From positions 124,001 to 188,000 of the forward strand of contig NZ_JACC01000006.1 in NCBI RefSeq assembly GCF_000520955.1: 64,000 nucleotides of DNA. Reading direction: 5' to 3'. The notes beneath the pieces are model-generated. The model saw nothing but the letters and a program-made list of their open reading frames with translations, was not told where the DNA came from and searched no databases. Of this stretch, positions 31,014 to 53,869 are shown one piece after another (position 1 is the first letter of the stretch; the number at the start of each line of letters is the position of its first letter). The DNA is from Aquimarina pacifica (GTDB lineage Bacteria > Bacteroidota > Bacteroidia > Flavobacteriales > Flavobacteriaceae). Position numbers and translations under genes: made by a program.

Positions 31014-32353
31014 TGTTGAAAACTAAAACATATAGTGGAATTCATAGTGTATTCAATGCTACCTCAAAAGGCTTGAACAACACAGGTATTGTACTTCTCA
31101 TTGCGGTCATCATTGCAATGGTATGGGCCAATTCACCTTGGCAAGAAATCTACCGCGGTTTAATGAAAACTAACATCTCATTTACCATAGGCCGTTTTGA
31201 AATTACTGAACCGCTGTTACTTTGGATTAACGATGGGCTGATGGCATTGTTCTTCCTTCAAGTAGGACTAGAATTAAAAAGAGAAATATTGGGCGGAAAG
31301 CTTTCAACTCTTCAAAATGCTGTACTTCCTATTGGGGCTGCCGTAGGTGGCATGGTTTTTCCTGCCTTTATTTATTTTCTATTTAATACCACAGGTGAAG
31401 CTTCTCAAGGCTGGGGCATTCCTATGGCAACAGATATTGCATTTTCTTTGGGTGTATTGGCACTTTTTGGAAAGCGTTTACCCGTAGCTCTGCGCGTATT
31501 TTTGGTAACGCTTGCAATCGTTGATGACTTGGGAGGTGTCTTGGTGATAGCGCTCTTTTATACATCGGGCATTTCAACAATGGATTTGTTCCACGCACTA
31601 CTTTTCTTCGGCTTATTGATAATTGGCAATTATGCAGGCGTCAGAAAAACTTGGTTTTATGCCATTATAGGGATAGGTGGTGTATGGTTGGCTTTCTTTT
31701 TCTCTGGAGTTCATCCTACTATTGCCGGTATACTGACAGCTATTGCTATTCCAGGACGTGTAAAAATTAAGGAAGATACTTTTCTAAAACGTTTAAGTAC
31801 GCTTCATTCACGTTTTACGAAAATAAAACCAGTAAAAGGAGCACTCATTTCTAGTGAGCAACTCGAAATACTGGAAGAAATCAAGTCAACAAGTTCCCAA
31901 GCAGAAACACCTCTTCAAAAGCTAGAAAAAGCATTAAATCCTATTGTTAGCTTTTTAGTGCTGCCTCTTTTTGCGTTGGCAAATGCAGGGATTCACTTGC
32001 ACGGTGAAGTTGGTCAGGTTTTACTCAATCCCATTAGTTTAGGTATTGGCGCAGGATTAGTTTTAGGAAAGTCCATTGGCATTGTATCAATTTCAAGGCT
32101 ACTTGTGGCTTTAAAACTAGCCAAATTACCCGATGCAGTAAATTGGAATCAACTATATGGTGTCGCCTTTCTGGCAGGAATCGGATTCACAATGTCTTTG
32201 TTCATCAATGAATTGGCTTTTGTAAATGAAGAATTCATTTATACGGCAAAAATCGGCATTCTGTTTTCCTCTCTTATTGCAGGAATAATCGGTTCAATCA
32301 TTTTAATTAAAAGTTCAAAAAAAATAATAACAAATAAAATAGTAAAACAATGA
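31013..32353 (+). CDS. nhaA: Na+/H+ antiporter NhaA
   Basis: A 446-residue membrane antiporter with the NhaA signature TDIAFSLGVLALFGKRLP and the paired aspartates in TLAIVDDLGGVLVIALFY. A cytoplasmic loop insert (about 255-305, charged) lies before the last helices. It exchanges Na+ for protons and could maintain pH or sodium balance under low energy. It overlaps NDH-2 upstream and the GAPDH gene downstream by 1 and 4 bp, so expression is coupled. Confidence 0.95.
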   Translation: MLKTKTYSGIHSVFNATSKGLNNTGIVLLIAVIIAMVWANSPWQEIYRGLMKTNISFTIGRFEITEPLLLWINDGLMALFFLQVGLELKREILGGKLSTLQNAVLPIGAAVGGMVFPAFIYFLFNTTGEASQGWGIPMATDIAFSLGVLALFGKRLPVALRVFLVTLAIVDDLGGVLVIALFYTSGISTMDLFHALLFFGLLIIGNYAGVRKTWFYAIIGIGGVWLAFFFSGVHPTIAGILTAIAIPGRVKIKEDTFLKRLSTLHSRFTKIKPVKGALISSEQLEILEEIKSTSSQAETPLQKLEKALNPIVSFLVLPLFALANAGIHLHGEVGQVLLNPISLGIGAGLVLGKSIGIVSISRLLVALKLAKLPDAVNWNQLYGVAFLAGIGFTMSLFINELAFVNEEFIYTAKIGILFSSLIAGIIGSIILIKSSKKIITNKIVKQ

Positions 32354-33363
32354 AAAAAATAGCAGTAATAGGATATGGTGTCATTGGTAAAAGGGTTGCT
32401 GATGCAATTGCACTACAGGATGATATGGAACTAACAGGTGTTTGCGATATCATAAGCGATTGGCGCATACAAAACGCCGTTAGAAAAGAGTATGATATCT
32501 ACGCAGCCACTGAAGAAGCAGCTGATAAAATGAAGTCTGAAGGAATTTCAGTAAAAGGAAGTATGCAGGAACTTTTGAAAAAAGCTGATTTGGTAGTGGA
32601 CTGTACGCCAAAAAACATAGCCGCTAAAAATGTAGAAATCTATAAAGCAAAAGGCATAAAATTTATTGTTCAAGGAGGCGAAAAACACAAAACCACAGGG
32701 CATTCCTTTAGTGCCGAAAATAATTATCAATCAGCTATAAACTTGGATGCTACAAGAGTTGTTTCTTGTAATACCACGTCTATTTTAAGAACCTTGACCG
32801 CTTTAAAAAGAGCTGATTTATTAGACTATGCAAGGGGAACACTTTTAAGAAGGGCTACAGACCCTTGGGAAAGTCATTTGGGCGGTATTATGAACACAAT
32901 GGTTCCCGAAAGAGATATTCCCAGTCATCAAGGACCCGATGCCCAAACTGTTGATTCTGATTTAGATGTCGTCACTTCTGCAGTAAAAGTACCTGAAACC
33001 TTAAGCCATATGCACTATTGGAATGTGAAGTTGAAAAGACAAGCCACAAAAGAGGAAGTGCTTAACGCCCTTAAAACATCTAACCGTATTAAACTAATTC
33101 AATATGACCAAGGTCTAGTTTCAAACAATACCATTAAAGAAATGTTCTTGGATATGGGAAGACCGTGGGGCGATATGTACGAAGTGGCTCTTTGGGAAGA
33201 TATGCTTAAAGTACAGGGAGACGAACTTTTTTATGCATACGTGGTCGATAACCAGGCCATTGTTATCCCTGAAACTATCGATGCTATTAGGGCACTTACA
33301 GGAATTGAAACAGATGGGGCTAAATCCATCTTGAAAACAAATCAAAGCTTATCTATTGCATAA
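32350..33363 (+). CDS. Type II (archaeal-type) glyceraldehyde-3-phosphate dehydrogenase
   Basis: A 337-residue enzyme with a Rossmann start (IAVIGYGVIGKRVADAI) and the archaeal-type catalytic segment RVVSCNTTSILRTL, with the nucleophile at Cys140. The bacterial type I signature (SCTTNC) is absent. It converts glyceraldehyde-3-phosphate to 1,3-bisphosphoglycerate and usually accepts NADP as well as NAD. Bacterial genomes rarely carry this type, and a housekeeping type I gene is expected elsewhere. It sits beside an FbaB aldolase and phosphofructokinase, making a glycolytic set on this island. Confidence 0.88.
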   Translation: MKKIAVIGYGVIGKRVADAIALQDDMELTGVCDIISDWRIQNAVRKEYDIYAATEEAADKMKSEGISVKGSMQELLKKADLVVDCTPKNIAAKNVEIYKAKGIKFIVQGGEKHKTTGHSFSAENNYQSAINLDATRVVSCNTTSILRTLTALKRADLLDYARGTLLRRATDPWESHLGGIMNTMVPERDIPSHQGPDAQTVDSDLDVVTSAVKVPETLSHMHYWNVKLKRQATKEEVLNALKTSNRIKLIQYDQGLVSNNTIKEMFLDMGRPWGDMYEVALWEDMLKVQGDELFYAYVVDNQAIVIPETIDAIRALTGIETDGAKSILKTNQSLSIA

Positions 33364-33373
33364 AGAAATACGA

Positions 33374-33991: not shown

Positions 33992-34018
33992 TATAAGGAA
34001 GCTATAAAAAATAGAATT

Positions 34019-35080
34019 ATGAGTACATATGAAAACATAATACAAAACCTTGGTGAAAAAGCTGATTTCTACTTGAATCATATTTGTGAAAAAATAACAA
34101 AAGATGAATTGCAGACACCAAGTGATAAAAATCTTGATAAGGTTTTTACAAATAGTAACAGAAATCCACAGGTACTTAGAAGCCTTAACCAATTATACAA
34201 CCACGGAAATCTTGGTGGCTCAGGCTACTTGAGCATCCTTCCTGTAGACCAAGGCATTGAGCATAGTGCTACTTTCTCATTCTATAAAAATCCGGATTAT
34301 TTTGACCCGGAAAATATCATAAAACTCGCCATTGAGGCAGGTTGTAATGGTGTGGCTTCCACCTTTGGTGTTTTGGGACTGAATGCGCGAAAATATGCCC
34401 ATAAAATACCTTTTATCGTAAAGATTAACCATAATGAGCTGCTTACCTATCCCAATAAATATGACCAAACGCTATTCGGAAAGGTAAAATCGGCTTGGGA
34501 TATGGGAGCAATTGCCGTAGGAGCTACGATTTATTTTGGCTCACAGGAAAGTAACAAACAGCTTAAGGAAATAGCCGAAGCTTTTGAAGAAGCACATAAT
34601 TTGGGAATGGCCACCATCCTATGGTGCTATACCCGAAATGAAGCTTTTAAAACTAAAAAAGAAGATTATCACGCAGCTGCTGATGTTACAGGGCAAGCAA
34701 ATCATTTGGGTGTAACTATTCAAGCAGATATCATTAAGCAAAAGTTACCTGTAAACAACTTTGGTTTTAAAGAGATAGGCTTCGGAAAATATGATGATGA
34801 TATGTATAAAACCCTCACTACCGACCACCCTATTGACCTGTGCAGATTACAAGTCGCAAATTGCTATATGGGTAAAATAGGACTGATAAATTCAGGAGGC
34901 GGTTCCAAAGGTGAATCGGATTTAACCGAAGCTATTACAACAGCAGTAGTTAATAAGCGTGCAGGAGGCTCAGGACTAATATTAGGAAGAAAGGCTTTCC
35001 AAAGGCCTTTTGGTGAAGGAGTAGAGCTATTGAGGTTGGTACAAAGTGTTTATTTGGATTCAAAAATTAATATTGCTTAA
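34019..35080 (+). CDS. fbaB: Class I fructose-bisphosphate aldolase, FbaB/DhnA type
   Basis: A 353-residue enzyme collinear with E. coli Fba[65 protein letters not shown] (with the Schiff-base Lys region) and [16 protein letters not shown], ending YLDSKINIA. It cleaves or forms fructose-1,6-bisphosphate through a lysine imine rather than a metal, so it would not be poisoned by copper or need zinc, which suits a metal-stress island. Confidence 0.95.
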
Positions 35081-35091
35081 CAAAACAAAAA

Positions 35092-36441: not shown

Positions 36442-36447
36442 CCAAAT

Positions 36448-37368
36448 ATGACATTACTTCTAATATCCATATTGTTCATTTTTCCTGTTGTCGCTATAGC
36501 AGGATATCAACATTATAAGATTGTTAAGCACCCAGATTATGATGCCAACAAAACACTCTTAAATTATGAAATAGTAGGTTCTGGAAGAAGTAAACTCGTT
36601 TTATTGCACGGTTTAACAGGCTCGCTGAATTATTGGAAACGCAATTTAGAAAGTATTTCAAATACACACACTTTGCTATTAATAGACCTTCTGGGTTTTG
36701 GTGATTCACCTAAACCACAAAATGATTATTCGCTTTCAGTTCAACTAAAAGCTTTAGAATTGGTTTTACAAAAAGAAGGATTCAATGATGGAAGAACGAT
36801 TATAGGAGGGCATTCAATGGGTGCTATAATTTCAATGGCCCTATTGGAAAAACACTCAAATTGGTTCAAAGCAGGCATTTTTATTGGAATACCTGTTTAT
36901 AAGGATGCAGATGAATTTAAGAAAGTTATGTCCTCACATTCCTTTGTGGATAGGATATCAACAAGCAAATTCTCTAAATACATCTGTATGATTCATCCCA
37001 TTTTTATGTCGCGTGCATTTAAACCAGACAACCTCACGGATGATGTTTATGAAGATGCAAAAAAACATCATTGGCAGAGCTATTATTATTCGCTTACGAG
37101 GGTAATTCTAAAAACAGATTTATACAGGATTGCAAGAAAGATTAGAGATAGAAAAGTGCTTTTCATCCACGGAGCAAAAGACACTACCGCACCACTCAAG
37201 AATGCCATAGACTTGTCGAGGGTATTTACAAACGTAAAAACTGCTATCTCTACGGAGGGTGACCATCAGTTCTTTCTAAAAGAAGCAGAATTTGTATGGG
37301 ATACAATTCAAGATTTTTCTGTTTCAGATAAAAAATTACAAAAAACAATATCAAATGAGCACAAATAA
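36448..37368 (+). CDS. Alpha/beta hydrolase
   Basis: A 306-residue protein with an N-terminal hydrophobic segment (signal anchor) and a hydrolase fold: oxyanion loop LLHGLTGSLNYW, nucleophile elbow IIGGHSMGAIISM (Ser), acid in FIHGAKDTTAPLK and catalytic His in EGDHQFFLKE. Substrate is unknown; esterase or lipase activity is plausible. Its end overlaps the pfkA start by 14 bp. Confidence 0.88.
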   Translation: MTLLLISILFIFPVVAIAGYQHYKIVKHPDYDANKTLLNYEIVGSGRSKLVLLHGLTGSLNYWKRNLESISNTHTLLLIDLLGFGDSPKPQNDYSLSVQLKALELVLQKEGFNDGRTIIGGHSMGAIISMALLEKHSNWFKAGIFIGIPVYKDADEFKKVMSSHSFVDRISTSKFSKYICMIHPIFMSRAFKPDNLTDDVYEDAKKHHWQSYYYSLTRVILKTDLYRIARKIRDRKVLFIHGAKDTTAPLKNAIDLSRVFTNVKTAISTEGDHQFFLKEAEFVWDTIQDFSVSDKKLQKTISNEHK

Positions 37369-38344
37369 AATAAAACATATAGGTGTATTTACCTCTGGAG
37401 GTGATAGTCCGGGAATGAACGCTGCATTATACGCTATTACAAAATCTCCGGAAGTAAATGGTATAAAAGTAAGTGGTTTTCGAAAAGGATATGAAGGATT
37501 GATAGACGGTGACTTGGTTCAATTAAAGTCGCACGAATTACAAAAACTGACCCAAAAAGGAGGCACTATCCTAAAGACCGCAAGAAGCAAACGTTTTCTG
37601 GAATTGGAAGGTCGAAAAAAAGCCTTGCAAACCCTAAACGCAAACAAAATAGATGCGTTGATTGCCATTGGTGGTGATGGCACATTTAAAGGACTACTCG
37701 CTTTTTCAGAAATATGCAACATTCCGTTCATAGGCATTCCTGGCACTATAGATAATGATATCTCAGGTACGGATTATACCCTTGGTTTTGATTCCGCAGT
37801 AAACACAGCCATTGAAAATATTGATAAAATAAGGGATACTGCCGAATCTCACAATCGGGTATTTATTGTGGAAGTAATGGGACGGGATTCAGGTTACATC
37901 GGCATTCATTCAGGACTAATGGTTGGTGCGGATGCCATACTAATTCCAGAAAGCGATACGGACTTTATGTATCTATTGGATAAAGTAAAAAATTACGACA
38001 GTGAGGATGCTTTTCTAATCGTAGTTTCTGAAGGCGATGAAATAGGTGCCGAACTCGTTTCTTCAAAAATAAAGGAAGTCAATCCCAATGTCGATTTACG
38101 TATTACCAAGCTTGGCCACGTACAACGAGGTGGAAATCCTTCTGCTTTAGATAGAATGTTGGGCATTAGGCTCGGCGTTGCTGCTGTAAACGCCCTTTTA
38201 CAAGGTAGAAGCAACGTAATGGCTGGTGTTTTAAACAATCAATTACACTTTACTTCTTTTGAAGAAGTGGTCAAACAGCATGAAGTAAATAAAGAGTTGA
38301 AAGAACTTTTAGAACTATTTGGTAAACAAAAACGAGAAAAATGA
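37355..38344 (+). CDS. pfkA: 6-phosphofructokinase
   Basis: About 329 residues from the ATG at 37355 inside the hydrolase end; an earlier in-frame ATG adds an unrelated leader. Motifs are GVFTSGGDSPGMNAALYAIT, ALIAIGGDGTFKGLLAF, catalytic PGTIDNDISGTDYTLGFDSA and EVMGRDSGYIGIHSGL. The GGDG loop points to ATP rather than pyrophosphate as donor. It makes fructose-1,6-bisphosphate for the nearby aldolase. Its stop overlaps the cupin start by 4 bp. Confidence 0.94.
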   Translation: MSTNKIKHIGVFTSGGDSPGMNAALYAITKSPEVNGIKVSGFRKGYEGLIDGDLVQLKSHELQKLTQKGGTILKTARSKRFLELEGRKKALQTLNANKIDALIAIGGDGTFKGLLAFSEICNIPFIGIPGTIDNDISGTDYTLGFDSAVNTAIENIDKIRDTAESHNRVFIVEVMGRDSGYIGIHSGLMVGADAILIPESDTDFMYLLDKVKNYDSEDAFLIVVSEGDEIGAELVSSKIKEVNPNVDLRITKLGHVQRGGNPSALDRMLGIRLGVAAVNALLQGRSNVMAGVLNNQLHFTSFEEVVKQHEVNKELKELLELFGKQKREK

Positions 38345-43420: not shown

Positions 43421-43431
43421 AAATGAAAATA

Positions 43432-44427
43432 ATGAAAACAACCATATTCAGTACACATAAATTTGAAGAACCTTATTTGATAAAGGCAAATAATAGTAGA
43501 CACGAATTAAAACTATTGGAAAGCCGTTTGACCAAAGAAACAGCTATTCTCGCAACAGGCTCTGAAGCCGTTAGCCTATTTACAGGTGATGATGCCTCGG
43601 CGCATATCGTTGAAAAATTAAGTGCGATTGGTGTTAAGTATATCGCCCTACGTTCAGCAGGGTTCAATCACGTTGATTTAGAAAAAGTAGCTGAAATGAA
43701 TATGAAAGTGGCTCGTGTTCCTGCTTATTCGCCATACGCTATTGCAGAACACACTCTGGCACTCATCTTAGCCCTAAACCGAAAAATAATTAGAGCACAC
43801 AATAGAGTTAGAGAACAAAATTTCTCACTGAACGGACTCACAGGATTCGACCTAAATGGTAAAACAGTAGGTGTTATTGGAACAGGAAAAATAGGTGCAG
43901 TACTTGTAAAAATACTTCATGGTTTGGGTTGTAAGATATTAGCTCAAGATGTTGCTGAAGATAAGAATCTGATAGATTTATATGATGTCATTTATACCAA
44001 CTGTACCACTATCTGCAAGCAAGCAGATATAATTAGCCTGCACGTTCCATTGACACCATCAACTCAGCACTTAATAGATAAAGAACATATCGCTTTAATG
44101 AAAGAAGGAGTTATGCTCATTAACACAAGCCGAGGTGGTCTTGTGGACACCAAGGCGGTTATTGAAGGATTAAAATCTGGTAAGATTGGGTATTTCGGCA
44201 TCGATGTGTATGAGGAGGAAGAAGGATTGTTTTTTGAAGACCATTCCGAAGATATATTACAAGACGATGTCATTGCTCGGTTAATGACATTCCCCAATGT
44301 TTTGATTACTAGCCACCAGGCTTTCTTAACCGAAACAGCACTAACAAATATTGCAGAAACGACAATATATAATTTGGGTTGTTTTGACAAAGAAATCCCC
44401 TCTGGAAATGAAATATCTGTCAATTAA
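43432..44427 (+). CDS. ldhA: D-2-hydroxyacid dehydrogenase (D-lactate dehydrogenase-like)
   Basis: 331 residues from the ATG at 43432 (another ATG is 9 nt upstream). The NAD-binding motif is GKTVGVIGTGKIGAVLVKIL. The catalytic Arg, Glu and His are in NTSRGGLVDTKAVIEG, FGIDVYEEEE and LITSHQAFLTETAL. This is the LdhA pattern. It would reduce pyruvate to D-lactate and regenerate NAD+, completing a fermentative route from the island's glycolytic enzymes. Confidence 0.9.
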   Translation: MKTTIFSTHKFEEPYLIKANNSRHELKLLESRLTKETAILATGSEAVSLFTGDDASAHIVEKLSAIGVKYIALRSAGFNHVDLEKVAEMNMKVARVPAYSPYAIAEHTLALILALNRKIIRAHNRVREQNFSLNGLTGFDLNGKTVGVIGTGKIGAVLVKILHGLGCKILAQDVAEDKNLIDLYDVIYTNCTTICKQADIISLHVPLTPSTQHLIDKEHIALMKEGVMLINTSRGGLVDTKAVIEGLKSGKIGYFGIDVYEEEEGLFFEDHSEDILQDDVIARLMTFPNVLITSHQAFLTETALTNIAETTIYNLGCFDKEIPSGNEISVN

Positions 44428-44451: not shown

Positions 44452-45282
44452 ATGAAAAATATACTAGTACCCACCGATTTCTCTGAAAACTGTGTAAAAG
44501 CTGCAAATCTTGGCATCAAAATAGCTAAACGTTACGATGCAGAGATACATTTTTTGCATTTAATGAAAACACCTGTGGACTGGGTTAAATTGGATAAACA
44601 AAAAGAAAAGCGATATCCAGAAACATTAAAGAAAATAGGAATTGCCAAGTCCGCTCTAAGAGAATTGGATAAAAAGGCAGAACGTAGTGGACTTAAATGT
44701 CGCACTTTTCTTCAATATGATGCTGGACAAGGAGATATTTTAGAACATTCTGGTCATTTTCATCACGATTTCATCATTACCGGCAGTAGCGGAACCAAAG
44801 GCGTTATCAGGGAAATAACAGGTAGTAACGTAGAAGAAATCGTTCGAAAAGCAAATGCGCCAGTAATTGTGGTAAAAGATGAAGATGTAACATTCCCGTT
44901 CAAAAATATTGTATTTGTTTCAGATTTCGAGGAAGATATAAGTGAGGCTTTTAGTCAGGTAATATCTATTGCAAAAAAATGTGATGCTCGCATTCATTTA
45001 TTACGAATAAATACCAAGACAGATTTTAACAGCATAAAACTTGGTTTAAATCCTATAGAACAGCTATTGGGCAAGTACCCAGAATTAAATGACTACTCAA
45101 TGGCAGTTTATAATGAGCCCTCTGTAGAAGCTGGCATTAATACTTTTATAAAGCAAAATCCAATAGACTTAATAGCAATGGTCACTCATGGCAAGACTGG
45201 TTTTTTAAGCTTGTTTTCCAAGAGTATTGTTGAAGGTGTCACCAATCATTCAACGTTACCTGTAATGACCATACATCTTTAA
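44452..45282 (+). CDS. Tandem universal stress protein
   Basis: A 276-residue protein with two UspA domains. The first (NILVPTDFSENCVKAANLGI) ends with a GSSGTKGVIREITGSNVEEI signature, the second (FKNIVFVSDFEEDISEAFSQ) with THGKTGFLSLFSKSIVEGVT. Both resemble ATP-binding Usp motifs. It probably acts in energy-stress adaptation like the single-domain protein at 29121. Confidence 0.88.
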   Translation: MKNILVPTDFSENCVKAANLGIKIAKRYDAEIHFLHLMKTPVDWVKLDKQKEKRYPETLKKIGIAKSALRELDKKAERSGLKCRTFLQYDAGQGDILEHSGHFHHDFIITGSSGTKGVIREITGSNVEEIVRKANAPVIVVKDEDVTFPFKNIVFVSDFEEDISEAFSQVISIAKKCDARIHLLRINTKTDFNSIKLGLNPIEQLLGKYPELNDYSMAVYNEPSVEAGINTFIKQNPIDLIAMVTHGKTGFLSLFSKSIVEGVTNHSTLPVMTIHL

Positions 45283-45296
45283 AAAAACATATTCAT

Positions 45297-45851
45297 ATGT
45301 CTGATAGATTAAATAAAATTCGAGAAAAATCATTCTTCAAATTACTCTTTGGAAGAACCGCATTACCTGCATTTATAATCTTTGGGATAGCTCTTGTTTA
45401 TGTTTTATTAATGTCACTAATCGATCATAGTTCTTTTCCATTTCATATAATTATTGCAACGGCAGCATTTATAAAAACTATAGTAATTACAGTGACCACC
45501 CTAAAACAACTTTCAAAACTGATAGATATTTGCCATTCAGTAAAGCAGTTACTATGGGTTTTTGGGGCGATAGTATTTATTAGTATTTTTTCATTTGCAA
45601 CTGATTACACCTGTCTTTACCAATTCGATCATACGACATTTGAAGGAATTGCTGTTCATTCAAATTCATACATATATAATCTGTACCACTTTTTTTACTT
45701 CAGTGTAATTACCTTTTCAACTGTTGGATATGGCGATATTACCCCAGTTTCCGAAGTAGCGAGATTTGTTGTTATGCTCGAAATATTTTTAAGCTTTTTA
45801 TTAATCGTTTTTGCTTTGGCAAATATCAAAAAAATACACCTTAATGAATGA
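45297..45851 (+). CDS. Potassium-channel-like protein (2TM pore domain)
   Basis: A 184-residue protein with four hydrophobic segments and one pore loop with the K+ selectivity filter TFSTVGYGDITP. A single subunit would give a tetrameric channel. No cytoplasmic RCK domain is present, so gating is unclear. It overlaps the next gene by 8 bp. Control of membrane potential or osmotic balance under stress is inferred. Confidence 0.88.
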   Translation: MSDRLNKIREKSFFKLLFGRTALPAFIIFGIALVYVLLMSLIDHSSFPFHIIIATAAFIKTIVITVTTLKQLSKLIDICHSVKQLLWVFGAIVFISIFSFATDYTCLYQFDHTTFEGIAVHSNSYIYNLYHFFYFSVITFSTVGYGDITPVSEVARFVVMLEIFLSFLLIVFALANIKKIHLNE

Positions 45852-46683
45852 TATAAATATTATAAAAGCAAGTGGAGAAGAAGTCCCTTTTCAAATCGAA
45901 AAATTGATAAGTTCGTTGCAAAGAGCAGGCGCTGATAGAGTGATAATTGATCAAATAGTAGAAAATATTGAAGGCACAATTTATAATGGAATTACCACAA
46001 AAAAAATCTATCAGAAGGCATTTAAAATGCTCAAGGGTAAATCTCGTGTAAGTGCTTCAAAATACAAACTCAAAAAGGCGATTATGGAATTAGGACCATC
46101 AGGATTTCCTTTTGAAAAATTTATTGGTAAGATTTTAGAGATGGAAGGCTTTAGCGCAAATGTAGGAGTTATTGTTCAAGGTAACTGTGTAAAGCACGAA
46201 GTTGATGTTATCGCCCAAAAAGAAGACAAACACTATATGATTGAATGCAAATACCACAGCGACCAAGGCAGGTTTTGCAATGTAAAAATCCCATTGTATA
46301 TCCATTCACGGTTTTTGGACGTGGAAAAGCAATGGGAACACCAAAAAGGTCACGAGGCTAAACTTCATAAAGGAGGGGTTTACACTAATACCCGGTTCAC
46401 AACAGATGCCATTCAGTACGGGAAATGTGCTGGAATGCTTATGACCAGTTGGGATTATCCAAAAGGAAATGGTCTCAAGGACAGAATAGATAAATCGGGG
46501 CTTCATCCCTTAACCGCTTTAACAACACTTAGCAAAGCTGAAAAAACAAAACTACTGGACAAAGGCATTGTACTGTGTAAAGAGCTTCACGAAAAACCTG
46601 CATTATTAGAGGAGACAGGAATTGATAAAACACGACATAAAAAGATTTTAGAAGATTCGGAAGCGTTGTGCACAATACATTAA
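45844..46683 (+). CDS. ATP-cone domain fused to Mrr/PD-(D/E)xK nuclease
   Basis: 279 residues from the ATG at 45844, overlapping the channel end. The N-terminal ATP-cone domain (about 1-90: IIKASGEEVPFQIEKLISSL, GITTKKIYQKAFKML) is a nucleotide-level sensor in ribonucleotide reductases and NrdR. The C-terminal part (about 95-200) is a restriction-endonuclease-like fold with the core HEVDVIAQ...HYMIECKYHS (D-x(n)-ExK). A nuclease whose activity is set by ATP/dATP level is the natural reading. The target (DNA or RNA) is unknown. Confidence 0.85.
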   Translation: MNDINIIKASGEEVPFQIEKLISSLQRAGADRVIIDQIVENIEGTIYNGITTKKIYQKAFKMLKGKSRVSASKYKLKKAIMELGPSGFPFEKFIGKILEMEGFSANVGVIVQGNCVKHEVDVIAQKEDKHYMIECKYHSDQGRFCNVKIPLYIHSRFLDVEKQWEHQKGHEAKLHKGGVYTNTRFTTDAIQYGKCAGMLMTSWDYPKGNGLKDRIDKSGLHPLTALTTLSKAEKTKLLDKGIVLCKELHEKPALLEETGIDKTRHKKILEDSEALCTIH

Positions 46684-46735
46684 AAGAACAAAAAAATAAT
46701 TAAATAAACAGTCATTAATTCTAAAAACAATACAG

Positions 46736-46990
46736 ATGAAAACCGAAGAAATGCAAAAAAAGAACAGTATAGATCTTGAGCCATTTTACCAAGCATTGGA
46801 AGATGACCCCAAATTACTTGATGAGGCTCTTGAAATATTGCTTGAGATGGTAAATTTTGAGCCTAAATCCATAAAGAAGCTGGCACTTGTAATAAAAGAG
46901 GATTCCCGTAACCTATACAATGAAATAGTAGAATTGAGCAAATCGGGGCAAAACAAAGGAAATACACCGTCCTGTTGTGGTGGACATTAA
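46736..46990 (+). CDS. Small helical protein with C-terminal CCGGH motif
   Basis: An 84-residue, mostly helical acidic protein (DLEPFYQALEDDPKLLDEAL) with a short tail ending PSCCGGH, a possible metal site. No family is recognised. It lies 15 bp before the beta-CASP gene and 52 bp after the ATP-cone nuclease, inside the nucleotide-recycling module. Confidence 0.6.
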   Translation: MKTEEMQKKNSIDLEPFYQALEDDPKLLDEALEILLEMVNFEPKSIKKLALVIKEDSRNLYNEIVELSKSGQNKGNTPSCCGGH

Positions 46991-47005
46991 ATAAATGCTA
47001 TAAAG

Positions 47006-48382
47006 ATGAAAAACAACAAAATAAATGTCCATTTTTTAGGAGCTGCAGGCACCGTAACCGGTTCAAAATATCTGGTAGATACAGGAGATAGAAAGATACT
47101 GATAGACTGCGGTCTTTTTCAGGGATTGAAAGAATTACGCCTTAAAAACTGGGAGTACCCACCTGTTAATGTTGCTGACATTGATGCTGTTTTGCTTACC
47201 CACGGCCATATGGACCATACAGGTTATCTGCCAAGATTGGTAAAGCAAGGGTTTAATGGTCCCATCTATGGCACTAATCCCACCTTGGATATAGCAAAAA
47301 TCATTTTGAATGATAGTGCTAAAATCCAAGAACAAGAAGCCGAACGTGCCAATAAAGAAGGCTATTCCAAACATAATCCTGCAGAACCACTTTACGATTT
47401 AAGCGATGTAGAAAAAACAATCCCTTACTTCAAAGGGGTACCACCCTCGCAATGGCTACCCATTCTCAAAGATGTAAAGGCGAGGTTTCAATACAATGGA
47501 CATATCCTTGGTGCTACACACATTGAGTTAGATATACGTGGAAAACGTTTTGTGTTTTCAGGTGATATAGGCAGAACAAACGATTTACTGCTTTTTCCAC
47601 CCTTAAAACCAAAAAAGGCAGATGTATTATTCATTGAATCCACCTATGGAGGAAGGTTTCATCCTGATGAAGTGGAAGCCATTCCGAAGATTGAAAAATT
47701 AGTCAACGACACTATAAATAGAGGTGGCAGCCTATTTATCCCAAGTTTTTCGGTAGAACGTGCCCAATTGATGATGCTTATTTTTTGGAGATTACTTAAA
47801 GAGAACAAAATACCTAAAGTACAAATGATAATGGATAGCCCTATGGGAGCTAATGTTTTGGAGTTATTTCATCGTACTAGGGATTGGCACAAACTTGAAG
47901 AGCACGAATGTGATGAGATGTGCTCTTATTTCACGGTTGTTAGGAGTTATCGCGAAACAATGGAATTAAGAACGGACAACATACCAAAAATCGTGATTGC
48001 AGGAAGCGGAATGCTCACAGGAGGACGTATGCTAAACTATCTTGAAACTCAAGCGCAAAACCCAAATAACACTTTGCTTTTTATAGGCTATCAAGCTGAA
48101 GGCACTCGTGGAAGAAAATTGTTGAAAGGCGAAAAAGAATTAAAGGTGTATGGAAAATGGGTGCCATTCAAAATGGAAGTTGCAGAAATTGAAGGTCTCT
48201 CGGCACACGCTGACCACACAGAACTAATGGATTGGATGAGTAAGATAAAAAATAAACCTGAAAGAATCTTTATCGTTCACGGCGAGAAAGAAGGCGCAGA
48301 AGCATTACAAAAGGATATAAAAGATACTTATGGATGGGATTCAGAAATTCCACAATTGTATAGTATCGAAGAAATAGAATAA
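47006..48382 (+). CDS. Beta-CASP metallo-beta-lactamase ribonuclease-like protein
   Basis: A 458-residue MBL/beta-CASP protein with HxHxDH (LLTHGHMDHTGYLPRL), GHILGATH, FSGDIG, the beta-CASP acid ESTYGG and the C-terminal RMMBL motif LSAHADHTELMDWM. Homologues of the CPSF/RNase J superfamily cut RNA with a di-zinc centre, so RNA cleavage is the best-supported role. It is 21 bp upstream of the AMP-phosphorylase-type gene, and its products could supply nucleotides to that enzyme. Confidence 0.9.
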   Translation: MKNNKINVHFLGAAGTVTGSKYLVDTGDRKILIDCGLFQGLKELRLKNWEYPPVNVADIDAVLLTHGHMDHTGYLPRLVKQGFNGPIYGTNPTLDIAKIILNDSAKIQEQEAERANKEGYSKHNPAEPLYDLSDVEKTIPYFKGVPPSQWLPILKDVKARFQYNGHILGATHIELDIRGKRFVFSGDIGRTNDLLLFPPLKPKKADVLFIESTYGGRFHPDEVEAIPKIEKLVNDTINRGGSLFIPSFSVERAQLMMLIFWRLLKENKIPKVQMIMDSPMGANVLELFHRTRDWHKLEEHECDEMCSYFTVVRSYRETMELRTDNIPKIVIAGSGMLTGGRMLNYLETQAQNPNNTLLFIGYQAEGTRGRKLLKGEKELKVYGKWVPFKMEVAEIEGLSAHADHTELMDWMSKIKNKPERIFIVHGEKEGAEALQKDIKDTYGWDSEIPQLYSIEEIE

Positions 48383-48403
48383 ATCATCATAATTAATAAA
48401 AAT

Positions 48404-49906
48404 ATGGACCAACACTCAAATATATTAAAATACAAACATCTCGGAATCTACACCCAAAATGAAAACGTGGTGTATATGAGAGAAGATTGCCACGTCTGTA
48501 TTTCAGAAGGGTTTGAGGCACTGACCCGAATTAGAATATCCAATGCAACAACCTCAATCGTAGCAAGTCTAAATGTTTTAAATTCAGATATTCTGTTGTC
48601 AAATGAAATTGGATTATCAGATGCTGCCGCGAAAAAACTTAATGTTACGCAAAATGACACGCTGTACGTTTCCCACTTGGAACCTATTGAATCGTTAAGC
48701 TATGTTAGGGCTAAAATCTATAATCAAAAACTAGATTATAAAGCTTACAGCGAAATTATAACCGATATCGTGGAAGGCGATTATTCAAATATTCATCTTT
48801 CAGCATTCATAACTGCATGCGCTGGTGACCGAATGGATATTGATGAAATATCCGACCTCACTAAAGCGATGATAGCTTCCGGAAAGCAACTGAATTGGAA
48901 AAAAGATATTGTAGTCGATAAGCATTGCATCGGCGGATTGCCTGGCAATAGAACAACGCCATTGGTAGTTGCCATCGTTGCTGCTTATGGGCTTACAATG
49001 CCCAAAACATCTTCGCGTGCTATCACTTCCCCAGCAGGTACAGCAGATACAATGGAAGTACTGACCAATGTGACGCTCTCTTCCGAAGAAATAAAGACCG
49101 TAGTAGAAAAGGAAGGTGGATGTTTTGTTTGGGGTGGTACCGCGCAATTAAGTCCTGCGGATGATGTGCTCATCAAAATTGAAAAAGCCTTGGATATCGA
49201 TAGTGAAGGCCAGCTCATCGCTTCAGTACTTTCAAAGAAAGCTGCGGCAGGTTCCACTCACGTGGTAATTGATATTCCCGTGGGCGAAACCGCGAAGGTT
49301 CGTAGTACCGAAATGGCAGAAAAACTAAAAAATCATATGGAAACCGTTGGAACTGCCGTTGGGTTGAATGTAAAAGTTGTAGTTACGGATGGCACGCAGC
49401 CTGTTGGAAGGGGTATTGGTCCAACTTTAGAAGCCATTGATATATTAAAAGTTTTGAAAAATGAGGAAGATGCACCCAAAGACTTAACAGAAAGAGCATT
49501 GTTTTTAGCTGCTGAACTAATAGAACTTTCTGGAAAAGTAGAAAAAGGAAAAGGATTGGAAACCGCACATAGAATTCTCAAATCTGGAAAAGCATATGAA
49601 AAATTCATAGCCATTTGTAAAGCACAAGGTCAGTTTTCAAAACCAGTTTTAGCACCTTATAAAATTGAAATTACGGCCGAAAAGTCAGGGGTTTTAAACA
49701 GAATTGATAACCGAAAAATTGCAAAACTTGCCAAGCTTTCGGGAGCACCTCAATCTAAATCAGCAGGGATTCTTTTAAATACCCATTTAGGAGAACAAAT
49801 CAAAGAAAACCAACTGCTATATACTATATATGCTGAATCCAAAGGTGAACTTAACTATGCCTTGGAATATAAAAACAATCATAACGACATCATAACTATA
49901 ATTTAA
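48404..49906 (+). CDS. AMP phosphorylase-type nucleotide phosphorylase
   Basis: A 500-residue protein of the thymidine/AMP phosphorylase superfamily with an extra N-terminal beta domain (about 1-95), as in archaeal AMP phosphorylase; DeoA-type thymidine phosphorylases lack it. Key segments are DKHCIGGLPGNRTTPL and SRAITSPAGTADTMEVL, which match the AMP phosphorylase group and not the thymidine form (KHSTGG). It should convert a nucleoside monophosphate and phosphate to base and ribose-1,5-bisphosphate. The PRPP synthase gene follows after 6 bp. Confidence 0.85.
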   Translation: MDQHSNILKYKHLGIYTQNENVVYMREDCHVCISEGFEALTRIRISNATTSIVASLNVLNSDILLSNEIGLSDAAAKKLNVTQNDTLYVSHLEPIESLSYVRAKIYNQKLDYKAYSEIITDIVEGDYSNIHLSAFITACAGDRMDIDEISDLTKAMIASGKQLNWKKDIVVDKHCIGGLPGNRTTPLVVAIVAAYGLTMPKTSSRAITSPAGTADTMEVLTNVTLSSEEIKTVVEKEGGCFVWGGTAQLSPADDVLIKIEKALDIDSEGQLIASVLSKKAAAGSTHVVIDIPVGETAKVRSTEMAEKLKNHMETVGTAVGLNVKVVVTDGTQPVGRGIGPTLEAIDILKVLKNEEDAPKDLTERALFLAAELIELSGKVEKGKGLETAHRILKSGKAYEKFIAICKAQGQFSKPVLAPYKIEITAEKSGVLNRIDNRKIAKLAKLSGAPQSKSAGILLNTHLGEQIKENQLLYTIYAESKGELNYALEYKNNHNDIITII

Positions 49907-49912
49907 AAAACT

Positions 49913-50806
49913 ATGAAAACAATATTATTCAGTCTTCCCGGAAATGAAGAACTCACAGAACTAATGGCTACAAAAATGGATGCTGAAGTGGGCAAAGCCA
50001 CTTTGCGTAATTTTCCCGATGGGGAATCGTACACGCGCATATTATCTGATGTTAAAGATAAATGTGTGGTGCTGGTATGCACCTTGCACGAACCAGACGA
50101 GAAACTGTTGCCACTATATTTTTTAAGCCACACAGCCAAATCATTAGGAGCTATGTGTACCTGTTTGGTAGCACCCTATTTGGCATATATGCGACAGGAC
50201 AAAGTTTTTAACGAAGGCGAAGGAGTAACTTCTGGTTTTTTCGGAAAATTGATTTCAGGTTTTGCCGATAGCATTACCACGGTTGACCCACACCTACATA
50301 GAATTAGTGCTTTAGGAGAAGTATATCAAATTCCAAATAAAGTGATTCACGCTGCCGATGCCATTTCAGAATGGATAAAAGAAAACATTGAAAACCCGGT
50401 ACTTATTGGACCCGATTCGGAAAGTGAACAATGGGTTTCCGAAGTCGCCAAAAATGCCGGAGCACCTTTTACGGTATTACAAAAGGTACGTCACGGTGAC
50501 CGTGATGTAGAAGTCTCTGTTCCCGATGTGGATAAATATAAAGATGCTACACCCATTTTGGTAGATGATATTATTTCCACAGCGCGGACAATGATTGAAA
50601 CCGTACAACATTTGAATAAAGCAGGAATGAAACCACCTATCTGCGTAGGTATTCACGCCGTTTTTTCAGGAAACGCTTATCAAGATTTGTTGGATTCTGG
50701 GGCAGAAAAAATAGTGACTTGTAATACCATCCCGCACTCTTCAAACGGAATAGATTTAAGTGATATTATGGCAAAAGAGGTGAAAAAATTGATGCATCAC
50801 ATATGA
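49913..50806 (+). CDS. prs: Ribose-phosphate pyrophosphokinase (PRPP synthase)
   Basis: A 297-residue enzyme of the shorter, archaeal-like length. RNFPDGESYTRI, RQDKVFNEGEGVTSGFF, TVDPHLHRI and the PRPP-binding loop PILVDDIISTARTMIE are present. It links ribose-5-phosphate and ATP to PRPP and AMP, reversibly. Adjacent to the AMP phosphorylase-type gene it could either feed PRPP to base salvage or run backward to make ATP. A housekeeping copy is expected elsewhere. Its end overlaps the next start by 4 bp. Confidence 0.88.
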   Translation: MKTILFSLPGNEELTELMATKMDAEVGKATLRNFPDGESYTRILSDVKDKCVVLVCTLHEPDEKLLPLYFLSHTAKSLGAMCTCLVAPYLAYMRQDKVFNEGEGVTSGFFGKLISGFADSITTVDPHLHRISALGEVYQIPNKVIHAADAISEWIKENIENPVLIGPDSESEQWVSEVAKNAGAPFTVLQKVRHGDRDVEVSVPDVDKYKDATPILVDDIISTARTMIETVQHLNKAGMKPPICVGIHAVFSGNAYQDLLDSGAEKIVTCNTIPHSSNGIDLSDIMAKEVKKLMHHI

Positions 50807-51447
50807 GAAAACAAAGTTTCATAGTACTATTTATCTTATTCAGCATTATAATGAATGGACAAACTGAAATGCTCATTGGGCAGATTTCAGGTAGAGTTGT
50901 CATTCGAGAAAATTTTGACGAAAAAGGCTCTTTTCTAAACAAACAAACTTTTGAAGCCGGTGAAACAATAAAGAAGAATGAATATTATGAAATTAAGGTG
51001 GTTACAGAATTGTTTGATGAGGACAAAAAGTCTACGGATAAATATACAACAACATATCGCTGTAGGCCTAATGAAGCAAGTGTAATGGTAATGGCTTTTC
51101 CGTTTTCTAATCCAAAATCAAAAGAGACCGAAATTAATACCACCTCTGAAAAATTTAAAGAGCTCTATGATTTGAATAACCTTGAAGATATAGAATTGGA
51201 AATGACTTTTGACTCGGGCTTATTGAATTTTTTTGGTTCAAAAAGCGTCATAAAGATTTACGACCGAACATTAGATGGCAACAAAAATAATATTAATTCA
51301 AAAATCAATATTAAGGCCTATGCCTGGGGAATTCGCATTAAGCAACTCAACTATACTGTCAATGAAAAAATAAATGGTAAAGGCTTATTGACCTTTCAGA
51401 AATTTACAGAGGAAGATAATAGTTATTTTACAATGACTTATAAATAG
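50803..51447 (+). CDS. Secreted protein of unknown function
   Basis: A 214-residue protein with a signal peptide (about 1-20, ending IIMNGQ) and a beta-rich body (EYYEIKVVTELFDEDKKSTD, YTTTYRCRPNEASVMVMAFP, LEDIELEMTFDSGLLNFFGS). I do not recognise the family. It overlaps the PRPP synthase stop by 4 bp, so it is translated with it, yet it should be exported. Confidence 0.65.
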   Translation: MRKQSFIVLFILFSIIMNGQTEMLIGQISGRVVIRENFDEKGSFLNKQTFEAGETIKKNEYYEIKVVTELFDEDKKSTDKYTTTYRCRPNEASVMVMAFPFSNPKSKETEINTTSEKFKELYDLNNLEDIELEMTFDSGLLNFFGSKSVIKIYDRTLDGNKNNINSKINIKAYAWGIRIKQLNYTVNEKINGKGLLTFQKFTEEDNSYFTMTYK

Positions 51448-51454
51448 AAAGAAA

Positions 51455-51748
51455 ATGAACAACTACGACACACTTTCAGAAGCAATTAACGATTTGCAGG
51501 CAAATGGTTATACATACGATTTTAACCTAAAACCTGAATGTTTGGAGTGTGCCTCACTAAAAATTGAATTACACCCAGAAGACTTTGAAGTGGATAAAAC
51601 CTATCGCTTTGAAGGCATGAGCAGTACCGACGATAACAGTGTGCTTTATGCTATTTCATCAAAAAATGGGATTAAAGGACTTTTGGTGGATGCCTATGGC
51701 GTCTATGCCGAAAACATTTCGGAAGCTATGAGAAAAAAATTACGATAA
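51455..51748 (+). CDS. Small protein commonly labelled 'phosphoribosylpyrophosphate synthetase'
   Basis: A 97-residue soluble protein (LSEAINDLQANGYTYDFNLK, KPECLECASLKIELHPEDFE, DNSVLYAISSKNGIKGLLVD). Similar small proteins are often annotated by neighbourhood as PRPP synthetase, but the sequence has no PRPP loop and is far too short. A partner or regulator of the adjacent nucleotide enzymes is possible. It lies 7 bp after the secreted protein and 18 bp before the copper ATPase. Confidence 0.7.
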   Translation: MNNYDTLSEAINDLQANGYTYDFNLKPECLECASLKIELHPEDFEVDKTYRFEGMSSTDDNSVLYAISSKNGIKGLLVDAYGVYAENISEAMRKKLR

Positions 51749-51766
51749 CACTTAAACAAGACAATA

Positions 51767-53869
51767 ATGGAAAATCACGAACATCACAATCACGAAGAAA
51801 TGGACCATTCAAAAATGGACCATTCTAAGAAAAAACAAAAAAAAGAAGACCATTCTAAAATGAATCACGGAGGTGGAGACCATTCAGGTCATAATCCGGG
51901 ACACGGTCAAATGGGTCACGACCATCATAAAATGATGATAGCAGACTTTAGAAAACGGTTTTGGGTAACACTTGTGCTTACCATTCCCATATTGTTTTTC
52001 TCGCCAATGATTCAGGAATTTTTTGGTTATGAATTTTTACTTCCAGGAAATCCATATATCCTTTTTGCACTTTCCACTGTTGTATATTTTTATGGTGGTT
52101 GGCCATTTTTAAAAGGGTTTTGGTCTGAAGTCAAAAAAGGTGCACCAGGAATGATGACCTTGATTTCTATGGCAATTTCTGTAGCTTATTTTTATAGTAC
52201 TGCTACCGTTTTTGGCTTAAGAGGTGAAGACTTTTTCTGGGAACTATCAACACTTATAGCCATAATGTTGCTTGGCCATTGGATAGAAATGAAAAGTGTG
52301 CTAGGTGCTTCAAAAGCCTTACAGTTACTGGTAAGTATGATGCCTGCGGAAGCGCACAGGGTAAAAGGTGACACCATAGAGGACATCCCTCTCGAAGATT
52401 TACTGAAGGATGATGTGATATTGGTAAAACCTGGGGAGAAAGTTCCAGCAGATGGAATAATAGTAGACGGTTCCAGTTACCTGAATGAATCTATGCTTAC
52501 AGGCGAATCCAAACCTGTAAAAAAGGATGAAAACGATAAGGTTATTGGTGGTTCGGTAAATGGCAATAGTACCTTAAAAGTAAAGGTTGAACATACTGGA
52601 AAAGATAGCTACCTCAACAAAGTCATCAAGATGGTAGAGGAAGCGCAAAAAACCAAATCCAAGATGCAAAATCTTTCAGATAGGGCTGCAAAATGGCTAA
52701 CCTACATCGCTTTGGCAATTGGTTTTGGTACGTTGGCAGTTTGGTTGATTTTAGGCTTTCCATTTGTTTACGCTTTAGAAAGAATGGTTACCGTTATGGT
52801 AATTGCTTGTCCACACGCATTGGGTCTTGCCATTCCACTTGTGGTTGCTATTTCTACCGCTGTATCTGCCCAAAATGGATTGCTTATCCGAAATAGGACT
52901 GCGTTTGAAGAGTCGAGGAAAATTTCAGCTTTGCTTTTTGATAAAACAGGAACATTAACCAAAGGTGATTTTGGTGTTACTCGAATCGAGTCTGTTAACA
53001 AGGCTTATTCATCAAAAGAAATTTTAAGACTTTCAAGTGCATTGGAACAAAGTTCTGAACACCCAATAGCTGTTGGGATTATCAAAAAAGTAAAAGAAGA
53101 TAATATTACTATCCCTAGCCCAGAAAACTTCAATGCAATTACTGGTAAAGGTGTAGAGGCCATTGTAGAAGGTAAGCAAGTTAAGGTAGTAAGTCCTGGT
53201 TTTTTAAGAGATGAGAAAATTACCATTCCTGAAGATGCATACAGCGATGCAGCGGAAACTGTAGTATTTGTTTTAATTGATGGTGAATTGGCAGGTTATA
53301 TTGCGCTTGCTGACGAAATAAGACCAGAATCTGCTGAAGCCATCAAAATATTCAAAAAAAATAATATTAAAGTCTTAATGGCAACAGGTGACAATGAAAA
53401 AACAGCTAAAGCCGTAAGTGAGAAACTTGGTTTAGATGGTTACTACGCTGAAGTATTACCACACCAAAAAGTAGAAATAGTTGAAGAACTACAAATAAAA
53501 GGAGAGTTTGTAGCTATGACGGGTGATGGTGTAAATGATGCACCAGCCCTTGCAAAAGCTAATGTAGGAATTGCCGTAGGCTCTGGTACTGATGTAGCTG
53601 CTGAAACTGCCGATATTATTCTGGTAAACAGCAATCCACAGGACATTGCCAACTTAATTTTATTTGGAAAGGCTACCTACAATAAAATGATTCAGAATTT
53701 AATATGGGCTACAGGTTATAATGTCGTAGCCATTCCTTTAGCAGCTGGTGTACTATATTCCTCGGGCTTTGTTTTAGGACCTGCGGTAGGTGCGGTATTT
53801 ATGAGTTTAAGTACGATTATAGTAGCCATTAATGCACAATTATTAAAACGAAAACTCGGTAAAAAATAA
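51767..53869 (+). CDS. copB: P1B-type copper ATPase, CopB-type (CPH motif)
   Basis: A 700-residue P-type ATPase. A His/Met/Asp-rich N-terminal metal-binding tail (about 1-55) is followed by membrane helices, the actuator motif LTGESKPV, the ion-site motif CPH at about residue 348 (VIACPHALGLAIP), phosphorylation motif DKTGTLTKG (about 391), HP locus SSEHPIAVG and hinge TGDGVNDAPAL. The CPH signature marks the CopB subgroup, linked to Cu2+/Cu+/Ag+ export, not the CPC CopA group. It ends the stress island and shares its stop with the MFS start (TAATG). Confidence 0.95.
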   Translation: MENHEHHNHEEMDHSKMDHSKKKQKKEDHSKMNHGGGDHSGHNPGHGQMGHDHHKMMIADFRKRFWVTLVLTIPILFFSPMIQEFFGYEFLLPGNPYILFALSTVVYFYGGWPFLKGFWSEVKKGAPGMMTLISMAISVAYFYSTATVFGLRGEDFFWELSTLIAIMLLGHWIEMKSVLGASKALQLLVSMMPAEAHRVKGDTIEDIPLEDLLKDDVILVKPGEKVPADGIIVDGSSYLNESMLTGESKPVKKDENDKVIGGSVNGNSTLKVKVEHTGKDSYLNKVIKMVEEAQKTKSKMQNLSDRAAKWLTYIALAIGFGTLAVWLILGFPFVYALERMVTVMVIACPHALGLAIPLVVAISTAVSAQNGLLIRNRTAFEESRKISALLFDKTGTLTKGDFGVTRIESVNKAYSSKEILRLSSALEQSSEHPIAVGIIKKVKEDNITIPSPENFNAITGKGVEAIVEGKQVKVVSPGFLRDEKITIPEDAYSDAAETVVFVLIDGELAGYIALADEIRPESAEAIKIFKKNNIKVLMATGDNEKTAKAVSEKLGLDGYYAEVLPHQKVEIVEELQIKGEFVAMTGDGVNDAPALAKANVGIAVGSGTDVAAETADIILVNSNPQDIANLILFGKATYNKMIQNLIWATGYNVVAIPLAAGVLYSSGFVLGPAVGAVFMSLSTIIVAINAQLLKRKLGKK

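Follow-up and report, generated by a model that had tools for sequence, protein, structure and literature searches.

Conserved linkage of an archaeal-type phosphorylase gene and a phosphoribosyl pyrophosphate synthase-like gene in Aquimarina pacifica and other bacteria

Gene content, linkage and mobility of the cluster

The window analyzed here is a 64,000-nt stretch of the Aquimarina pacifica genome (GCF_000520955.1, NZ_JACC01000006.1, positions 124,001-188,000), and coordinates below are window positions unless another contig is named. Five genes at 45844-50806 share one strand (+) and are spaced -8 to 52 bp apart, the first overlapping an upstream K+-channel gene by 8 bp (Table 1). They encode a nuclease with an ATP-cone domain, an 84-aa protein, a beta-CASP metallo-hydrolase, an archaeal-type phosphorylase and a protein resembling phosphoribosyl pyrophosphate (PRPP) synthase (PRPS). 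The phosphorylase and PRPS-like genes form a conserved two-gene unit, of which the beta-CASP RNase is a frequent third partner; the ATP-cone nuclease is a lineage-specific addition and no general member of the set. An earlier note, made from the sequence alone, had joined four of the five genes in one RNA-recycling pathway. All four were recovered at the positions it gave by open reading frame (ORF) and Pfam/NCBIfam searches, its inventory had missed the 84-aa gene and the 214-aa and 97-aa genes further downstream, and of its pathway the conserved pair stands, frequently with the beta-CASP gene and without the ATP-cone nuclease as a general component. The ATP-cone ORF starts at ATG 45844; protein searches used 45847, one codon downstream.

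Starting from 117 phosphorylase relatives, 80 loci were retained for following linkage; they were scanned over up to 10 kb and are unequal in length, some of them ending at contig ends. The 214-aa gene was found in all 80, the PRPS-like, beta-CASP, ATP-cone nuclease and P-type ATPase genes in 79 each, the 97-aa gene in 78, a universal stress protein (Usp) gene in 77, the 84-aa gene and a major facilitator superfamily (MFS) transporter in 68 each and D-lactate dehydrogenase in 57. Genes for aldolase (46), 6-phosphofructokinase (PFK; 45), glyceraldehyde-3-phosphate dehydrogenase (GAPDH; 40) and the K+ channel (17) were less frequent. The locus missing from the PRPS-like count (L078) is masked by N across the gene, and the sole locus without beta-CASP and ATP-cone genes (L021) is cut by a contig end. 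Because the set is kept in 79 of 80 loci, the gene order is not due to chance.

The same pair was found far from Aquimarina. Approximately one in nine of the sampled Pseudomonadota genomes carried the phosphorylase (45 of 398, 44 of them above the family cut-off; 48 places), 41 carried the PRPS-like gene (NF005537) and 40 carried both (Fisher test with genomes treated as independent, P = 3e-48). The phosphorylase was sparse in Bacteroidota (4 of 296 genomes, A. pacifica included, one below the family cut-off) and matched 115 plasmid records. Forty of the 48 Pseudomonadota places were compared with 40 control stretches elsewhere in the same genomes, which were hand-placed at round coordinates and are non-random; three controls and 7 of the 40 island loci were shorter than 15 kb. 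The PRPS-like gene was found in 39 island loci vs. one control, beta-CASP in 18 vs. 0, P-type ATPase in 9 vs. 1, acetate kinase in 4 vs. 0, phosphoketolase in 3 vs. 0 and CusA in 3 vs. 1. The ATP-cone nuclease was found in none of the 40 loci and none of the 40 controls. Among the remaining eight places, two adjoin a PRPS-like gene, one is split between contigs and five show no PRPS-like gene.

Thirteen plasmids of Chlamydiota, Bacteroidota and Pseudomonadota were hand-picked from 60 of the 115 records. The PRPS-like gene was adjacent to the phosphorylase gene in 11 of them. Ten had a beta-CASP gene beside the pair, and two had the ATP-cone gene. The order on the Criblamydia plasmid was phosphoketolase, glucan phosphorylase, ATP-cone, beta-CASP, phosphorylase, PRPS-like and acetate kinase. 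The module is more general than the sequence of the window alone could reveal. Absence of co-occurrence beyond close relatives had been named in the earlier note as grounds for giving up the pathway; for the phosphorylase, the PRPS-like protein and, less often, the beta-CASP protein those grounds fell away because linkage reaches well past close relatives.

The cluster has been horizontally transferred, and many bacteria carry it on mobile DNA. On the A. pacifica contig, the stretch between G000:C6:104001 and approximately C6:203960 (approximately 100 kb), which includes the entire window, was 99.9-100% identical to an Aquimarina latercula scaffold, with the exception of a repeat-length difference near window position 63.9 kb; to the left the match reaches at least that far. 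The next 0.9 kb was 96% identical and the match then stopped (approximately 204.9 kb; L252:15143-16900), its right end lying directly past an ORF that by eye resembles a serine recombinase. A housekeeping stretch of 2.6 kb was 78.9% identical between the two species. Contamination may be the source of this near-identity. Identity to A. pacifica was also higher for the island PRPS-like protein than for the housekeeping PRPS in Galbibacter (98% vs. 81%), Membranihabitans (98% vs. 56%), a Cyclobacterium metagenome-assembled genome (96% vs. 58%) and the gammaproteobacterium Marinicella (89% vs. 46%).

Table 1. Genes of the cluster and of its surroundings in the window
Feature	Position	Strand	Evidence
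ATP-cone + Mrr/Hjc/AF1548-like PD-(D/E)XK nuclease	45844..46683	+	Pfam PF03477, PF04471, PF01870 above cut-offs
84-aa protein, family-less, conserved C-terminal SCC(G)G	46736..46990	+	ORF; conservation
Beta-CASP metallo-hydrolase with RMMBL (RNase TTHA0252/aCPSF-like)	47006..48382	+	Pfam, phmmer
Archaeal-type NMP/thymidine phosphorylase with N-terminal domain	48404..49906	+	NF003338, TIGR02645
PRPP-synthase-like protein, altered pyrophosphate loop GPDSESEQW	49913..50806	+	NF005537
Conserved 214-aa protein, hydrophobic N-terminus (by eye)	50803..51447	+	4-bp overlap with PRPS-like gene
97-aa protein	51455..51748	+	Conserved; family-less
P-type ATPase, heavy-metal/copper-type by similarity	51767..53869	+	Pfam PF00122/PF00702
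Tandem universal stress protein, upstream of cluster	44452..45282	+	Pfam PF00582, two stretches
D-2-hydroxyacid (lactate-type) dehydrogenase	43423..44427	+	Pfam PF02826/PF00389
6-Phosphofructokinase, same island	37352..38344	+	Pfam PF00365, 336.5 bits
Class I aldolase, DeoC/LacD type	34019..35080	+	Pfam PF01791, 201 bits
Type II (archaeal-type) GAPDH-like	32350..33363	+	Weak Gp_dh Pfam matches

Predicted activities of the encoded proteins

The phosphorylase contains the Pfam domains Glycos_trans_3N, Glycos_transf_3 and PYNP_C and scored above the family cut-offs of NF003338 (690.8 bits, cut-off 434) and TIGR02645 (602.5 bits, cut-off 434.6; match from residue 8). Its nearest solved structures were 4ga5 (4.3e-97), which we take to be a Thermococcus enzyme, and 4ga4 (8.4e-95), with pyrimidine phosphorylases at 6e-40 or worse. 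The motifs GG.PGN(R/K)T and SSRAIT and residue Glu260 are common to the phosphorylase and 4ga5; the pyrimidine phosphorylase 3h5q has Arg at the Glu260 position, and this Arg presumably contacts the pyrimidine. The window protein looks like a nucleoside monophosphate (NMP) phosphorylase, an identity that is likely yet unproven because the 4ga5 motifs and Glu260 are present but the cut-off of the curated AMP phosphorylase model TIGR03327 is missed (494.3 bits, cut-off 535).

In archaea, NMPs are known to undergo phosphorolysis to ribose-1,5-bisphosphate (R15P), with R15P isomerase and often RuBisCO acting next (excerpts of PMC9700705). The window phosphorylase resembles the Thermococcus NMP (AMP) phosphorylase of this pentose bisphosphate pathway, as described in the same excerpts, in family, N-terminal domain and active-site motifs, and R15P would be its expected product. 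It differs in its score against TIGR03327, in having a PRPS-like gene next door instead, and in its hosts: R15P isomerase was above cut-off in none of 50 host genomes, and RuBisCO was absent from A. pacifica and 11 other island genomes, in keeping with the earlier note, which had seen none. A RuBisCO link was thus rejected for A. pacifica. Matches of 139-180 bits to R15P isomerase (cut-off 314) occurred in 19 of the 50 hosts and are perhaps, we assume, methylthioribose-phosphate isomerase. PhnN was above cut-off in none of the 12 island genomes, all of which had weak matches that we take to be perhaps guanylate kinase. Among eight other Pseudomonadota tested, RuBisCO was present in five and PhnN in three. 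If R15P is made in A. pacifica, no R15P isomerase, RuBisCO or PhnN was found to consume it; other consumers were not searched for. Phosphoketolase was rejected as a universal sink, being present in 1 of the 12 island genomes, and is kept as an optional companion; two of its three matches near Pseudomonadota loci reached only 23-24% identity, and the Pfam model confirmed phosphoketolase in one of the two genomes concerned. Activation of phosphofructokinase by R15P, an idea from mammalian work that the PFK gene of the island brings up, was not confirmed among the literature matches listed.

The PRPS-like protein contains Pribosyltran_N and Pribosyltran (Pfam) and scored 396.7 bits against NF005537 (cut-off 322). 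All 16 genomes tested had a housekeeping PRPS (341-390 bits) plus the cluster copy (170-207 bits), so that the PRPS-like protein is, by its sequence, an extra, divergent paralogue. We surveyed residues in 124 cluster copies, of which one (L078) was partly masked, leaving 123 readable at the loop. Every readable copy keeps RQD, His127, Lys191, Arg193, Asp218 and Asp219. We take RQD and His127 to belong to the ATP site, Lys191 and Arg193 to the catalytic loop, Asp218 and Asp219 to the ribose-5-phosphate (R5P) loop and the loop at residue 170 to the pyrophosphate site. This last loop reads GPD-x-E-S-x-Q-W: residue 170 is Glu in all 123 readable copies, and residue 171 is Ser in 120 of them and Ala in three. 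Gly-Gly stands there in all nine housekeeping copies read, and Gly-Ala in two class III sequences compared. The AlphaFold2 model (pLDDT, the predicted local distance difference test, 93.9) matches archaeal and other PRPP synthases in fold. The fold, RQD and His, the catalytic Lys/Arg and the Asp-Asp of the R5P loop are therefore shared with class III (archaeal) PRPP synthases (1u9y, 3mbi), whereas the pyrophosphate loop of all readable PRPS-like copies has D-x-E-S or D-x-E-A in place of the Gly-containing D-x-G-A/G of these synthases. A Glu in the place meant for the product pyrophosphate suggests altered chemistry. The ordinary PRPP synthase chemistry supposed in the earlier note cannot be assumed because this loop is remodelled. 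A third, partial PRPS-like match (136 bits) lies on the same contig at G000:C6:6272-6997, and the A. latercula genome has a similar match of 143 bits.

The beta-CASP protein has the MBL motif HxHxDH, the Beta-Casp domain (109.6 bits) and the RMMBL domain (70.3 bits) expected of a beta-CASP ribonuclease (Pfam). It matched RNase TTHA0252 over residues 11-436 (phmmer, 6.5e-71), and at least 95% of 102 homologues retain its metal motif LTH.H.DH.G. The window gene differs from that of RNase TTHA0252 in being linked to the phosphorylase, and its RNase role is a predicted one. The ATP-cone nuclease combines an ATP-cone domain (31 bits, cut-off 25.8) with Mrr_cat (26.4 bits, cut-off 21) and matched AF1548 (1y88; phmmer, E = 1.1e-31); its motifs PFE, HE.DV and IECK recur in at least 95% of 81 homologues. 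Nucleases of the Mrr type act mostly on DNA, so that NMP release by this protein is unproven. The earlier proposal of NMP release by the nucleases under falling ATP is not supported in that form, the ATP-cone gene being missing from all 40 Pseudomonadota loci and present on 2 of 13 plasmids.

Proposed function, stress setting and rival explanations

The best reading, which we hold tentatively and at close to an even call, is a ribose-phosphate and energy salvage pair for respiratory stress. Its core would be the phosphorylase and the PRPS-like enzyme, often joined by the beta-CASP RNase, with RNA fragments as feedstock. The phosphorylase most likely would convert NMP and phosphate to base and R15P. 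The PRPS-like enzyme is the likely next enzyme because the known archaeal exit from R15P was not found in the hosts; it would use R15P, or the adjacent AMP/PRPP pool, return R5P to central metabolism and help to restore ATP. The pair would work when respiration is limited by low oxygen or metal poisoning. Substrates, flux direction and the role of the nucleases are what we infer.

The strongest new lead is that the altered PRPS-like enzyme may supply the missing step in R15P handling. In a more specific form, which we consider quite unlikely, it would be an R15P phosphotransferase and not a PRPP synthase (e.g., R15P + ADP -> R5P + ATP), and with an NMP phosphorylase it would provide a mobile, RuBisCO-free route from RNA-derived nucleotides to ATP. 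The change from Gly to Glu would remove the pyrophosphate site and leave the ATP site, R5P loop and catalytic Lys/Arg intact. In Pseudomonadota, 40 of the 41 genomes with the PRPS-like gene also carry the phosphorylase, a near confinement that speaks for this form.

Expression data place the genes in a low-oxygen setting. In Bradyrhizobium diazoefficiens, bll3117-bll3116-bll3115 carry the same three product names, a correspondence by name and not by sequence. According to excerpts of PMC6515984, microoxia raised their proteins by log2 values of 2.9 (bll3115), 4.4 (bll3116) and 2.1 (bll3117) and their transcripts 15.4-fold, 7.7-fold and 5.1-fold, respectively. In a fixK2 mutant, bll3117 fell 6.6-fold and bll3115 30.6-fold; a FixK2 motif lies at -74 of the operon, and a phosphoketolase-acetate kinase operon appears in the same table (excerpts of PMC9104804). 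This operon differs from the cluster in its gene order, in that no ATP-cone gene is named in these excerpts and in its FixK2 box, which the window lacks. Over whole stretches, FNR/FixK-type boxes were more frequent in island loci (23 in 860 kb) than in controls (6 in 734 kb; binomial P = 0.008) at near-equal G+C, which mildly supports the low-oxygen setting. The search used a strict pattern, which the published Bradyrhizobium motif does not fit. An upstream box as a general feature was rejected (1 of 45 loci vs. 4 of 559 control starts). The energy-stress idea of the earlier note gains from the microoxia-induced, FixK2-dependent operon and loses in that the excerpted 2019 table of PMC6515984 marks bll3117-3115 neither as direct FixK2 targets nor as soybean-bacteroid-induced.

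This table is one of several points that weigh against a salvage pair for respiratory stress. The window has no FNR/FixK-type box, and such boxes were no more frequent directly upstream of the cluster than elsewhere, as the counts above indicate. The phosphorylase falls below the AMP phosphorylase model, all enzyme activities are predictions, and phosphoketolase was found neither in the A. pacifica genome nor in 10 of the 11 other island genomes. A PRPS-like neighbour is missing from at least 6 of the 48 phosphorylase loci in Pseudomonadota and from 2 of the 13 on plasmids, and the 19.5-kb locus of one PRPS-like gene (L234) contains no phosphorylase. The linkage to metal genes hints at another kind of stress. 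The phosphorylase copies without a PRPS-like neighbour (L144, L231, L233 and L235-L239, the L239 copy with an in-frame stop) may be in decay, or they may represent a second class with another function.

Metal genes are frequent near the cluster and suggest metal stress as a further setting. Among the competing readings, a copper-tolerant PRPP back-up ranks first, albeit as an unlikely one. The island would supply stand-ins for copper-poisoned PRPP synthase, GAPDH and perhaps a metal-dependent aldolase, and the phosphorylase would be a salvage enzyme keeping PRPP and nucleotides supplied under copper stress. It draws on the P-type ATPase in nearly all of the nearest loci and its excess over controls in Pseudomonadota, on copper or heavy-metal genes near 12 of 12 annotated plasmid copies (the thirteenth record is unannotated) and on type II GAPDH genes in the window and on 3 of 13 plasmids. 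In Staphylococcus aureus, Cu(I) is reported to inhibit Prs, and GapA is reportedly copper-inhibited (excerpts of PMC10249872). However, plasmids are rich in metal genes anyway, 31 of the 40 Pseudomonadota pairs had no P-type ATPase match in the stretch read, and a plain PRPP back-up leaves the changed pyrophosphate loop and the near-obligate phosphorylase partner unexplained.

Ordinary salvage of thymidine and pyrimidine nucleosides, in which the phosphorylase degrades thymidine or uridine and a PRPP synthase aids base salvage, agrees with the database name "putative thymidine phosphorylase" and with the PYNP_C and Glycos_transf_3 domains. It is improbable, given the much closer match to 4ga5 and 4ga4 than to pyrimidine phosphorylases, the Glu, as in 4ga5, that replaces their Arg, and the archaeal-type N-terminal domain. 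It is decidedly improbable, too, that the genes co-travel on a mobile element without a shared pathway. The near-identical 100 kb in A. latercula and the excess of island over housekeeping PRPS identity are what such hitchhiking would produce, but the pair is equally tight in Pseudomonadota whose PRPS-like proteins share only 29-50% identity with that of the window, multi-megabase contigs included, and hitchhiking should have broken this adjacency in such diverged loci. A defence or damage module, in which the ATP-cone nuclease and beta-CASP protein attack foreign or damaged nucleic acid and the metabolic pair clears the products, is very improbable: it could appeal to the Mrr-like domain, a weak PADLOC match to a CARF-PDDEXK protein (23.6 bits) and a resemblance of the beta-CASP protein to the NCBIfam Cas14 profile (390 bits, cut-off 800), but the PADLOC matches were all weak and single-gene (23.6 and 17.2 bits), so that an anti-phage system was rejected on PADLOC's system-gene criterion, 40 of 40 Pseudomonadota loci had no ATP-cone match and 22 of 40 no beta-CASP match (with the short loci noted above), and the neighbours are stress, metal and carbon genes.

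If R15P is truly made, hosts such as A. pacifica must consume it by a route not yet known. Genes now annotated "putative thymidine phosphorylase" and "ribose-phosphate pyrophosphokinase" would then acquire a function, and hypoxia regulons, metal-resistance plasmids and RNA turnover would be connected. The bacterial phosphorylases mostly have a different partner, which is uncharacterized as far as the literature was searched. Among the matches listed from open-licence PMC literature, no paper treats these genes as one pathway; those bearing on the cluster were the two Bradyrhizobium papers cited above and PMC5467263, excerpts of which list a strain-specific thymidine phosphorylase gene of Pseudomonas aeruginosa in a table.

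Neighbouring genes

The 84-aa, 214-aa and 97-aa proteins had no Pfam or NCBIfam family matches, and the predicted model of the 214-aa protein (pLDDT 65.6) was too poor for a fold search. The SCC(G)G tail of the 84-aa protein perhaps binds metal. The same-strand surroundings at approximately 29-55 kb contain two Usp genes and genes for NDH-2, NhaA, the GAPDH-like protein, aldolase, PFK, D-hydroxyacid dehydrogenase, K+ channel, P-type ATPase and an MFS transporter. The GAPDH-like protein was 56% and 58% identical to the products of plasmid genes annotated "type II glyceraldehyde-3-phosphate dehydrogenase", and the aldolase is, we assume, of the archaeal fructose-bisphosphate aldolase type. The cargo of the approximately 100-kb stretch shared with A. 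latercula also includes an AcrB/Cus-type efflux gene, a multicopper oxidase and a TonB receptor. Taken together, the GAPDH-like protein, aldolase and PFK (32350-38344) have the look of a second upper glycolytic route, archaeal in character, on mobile DNA.

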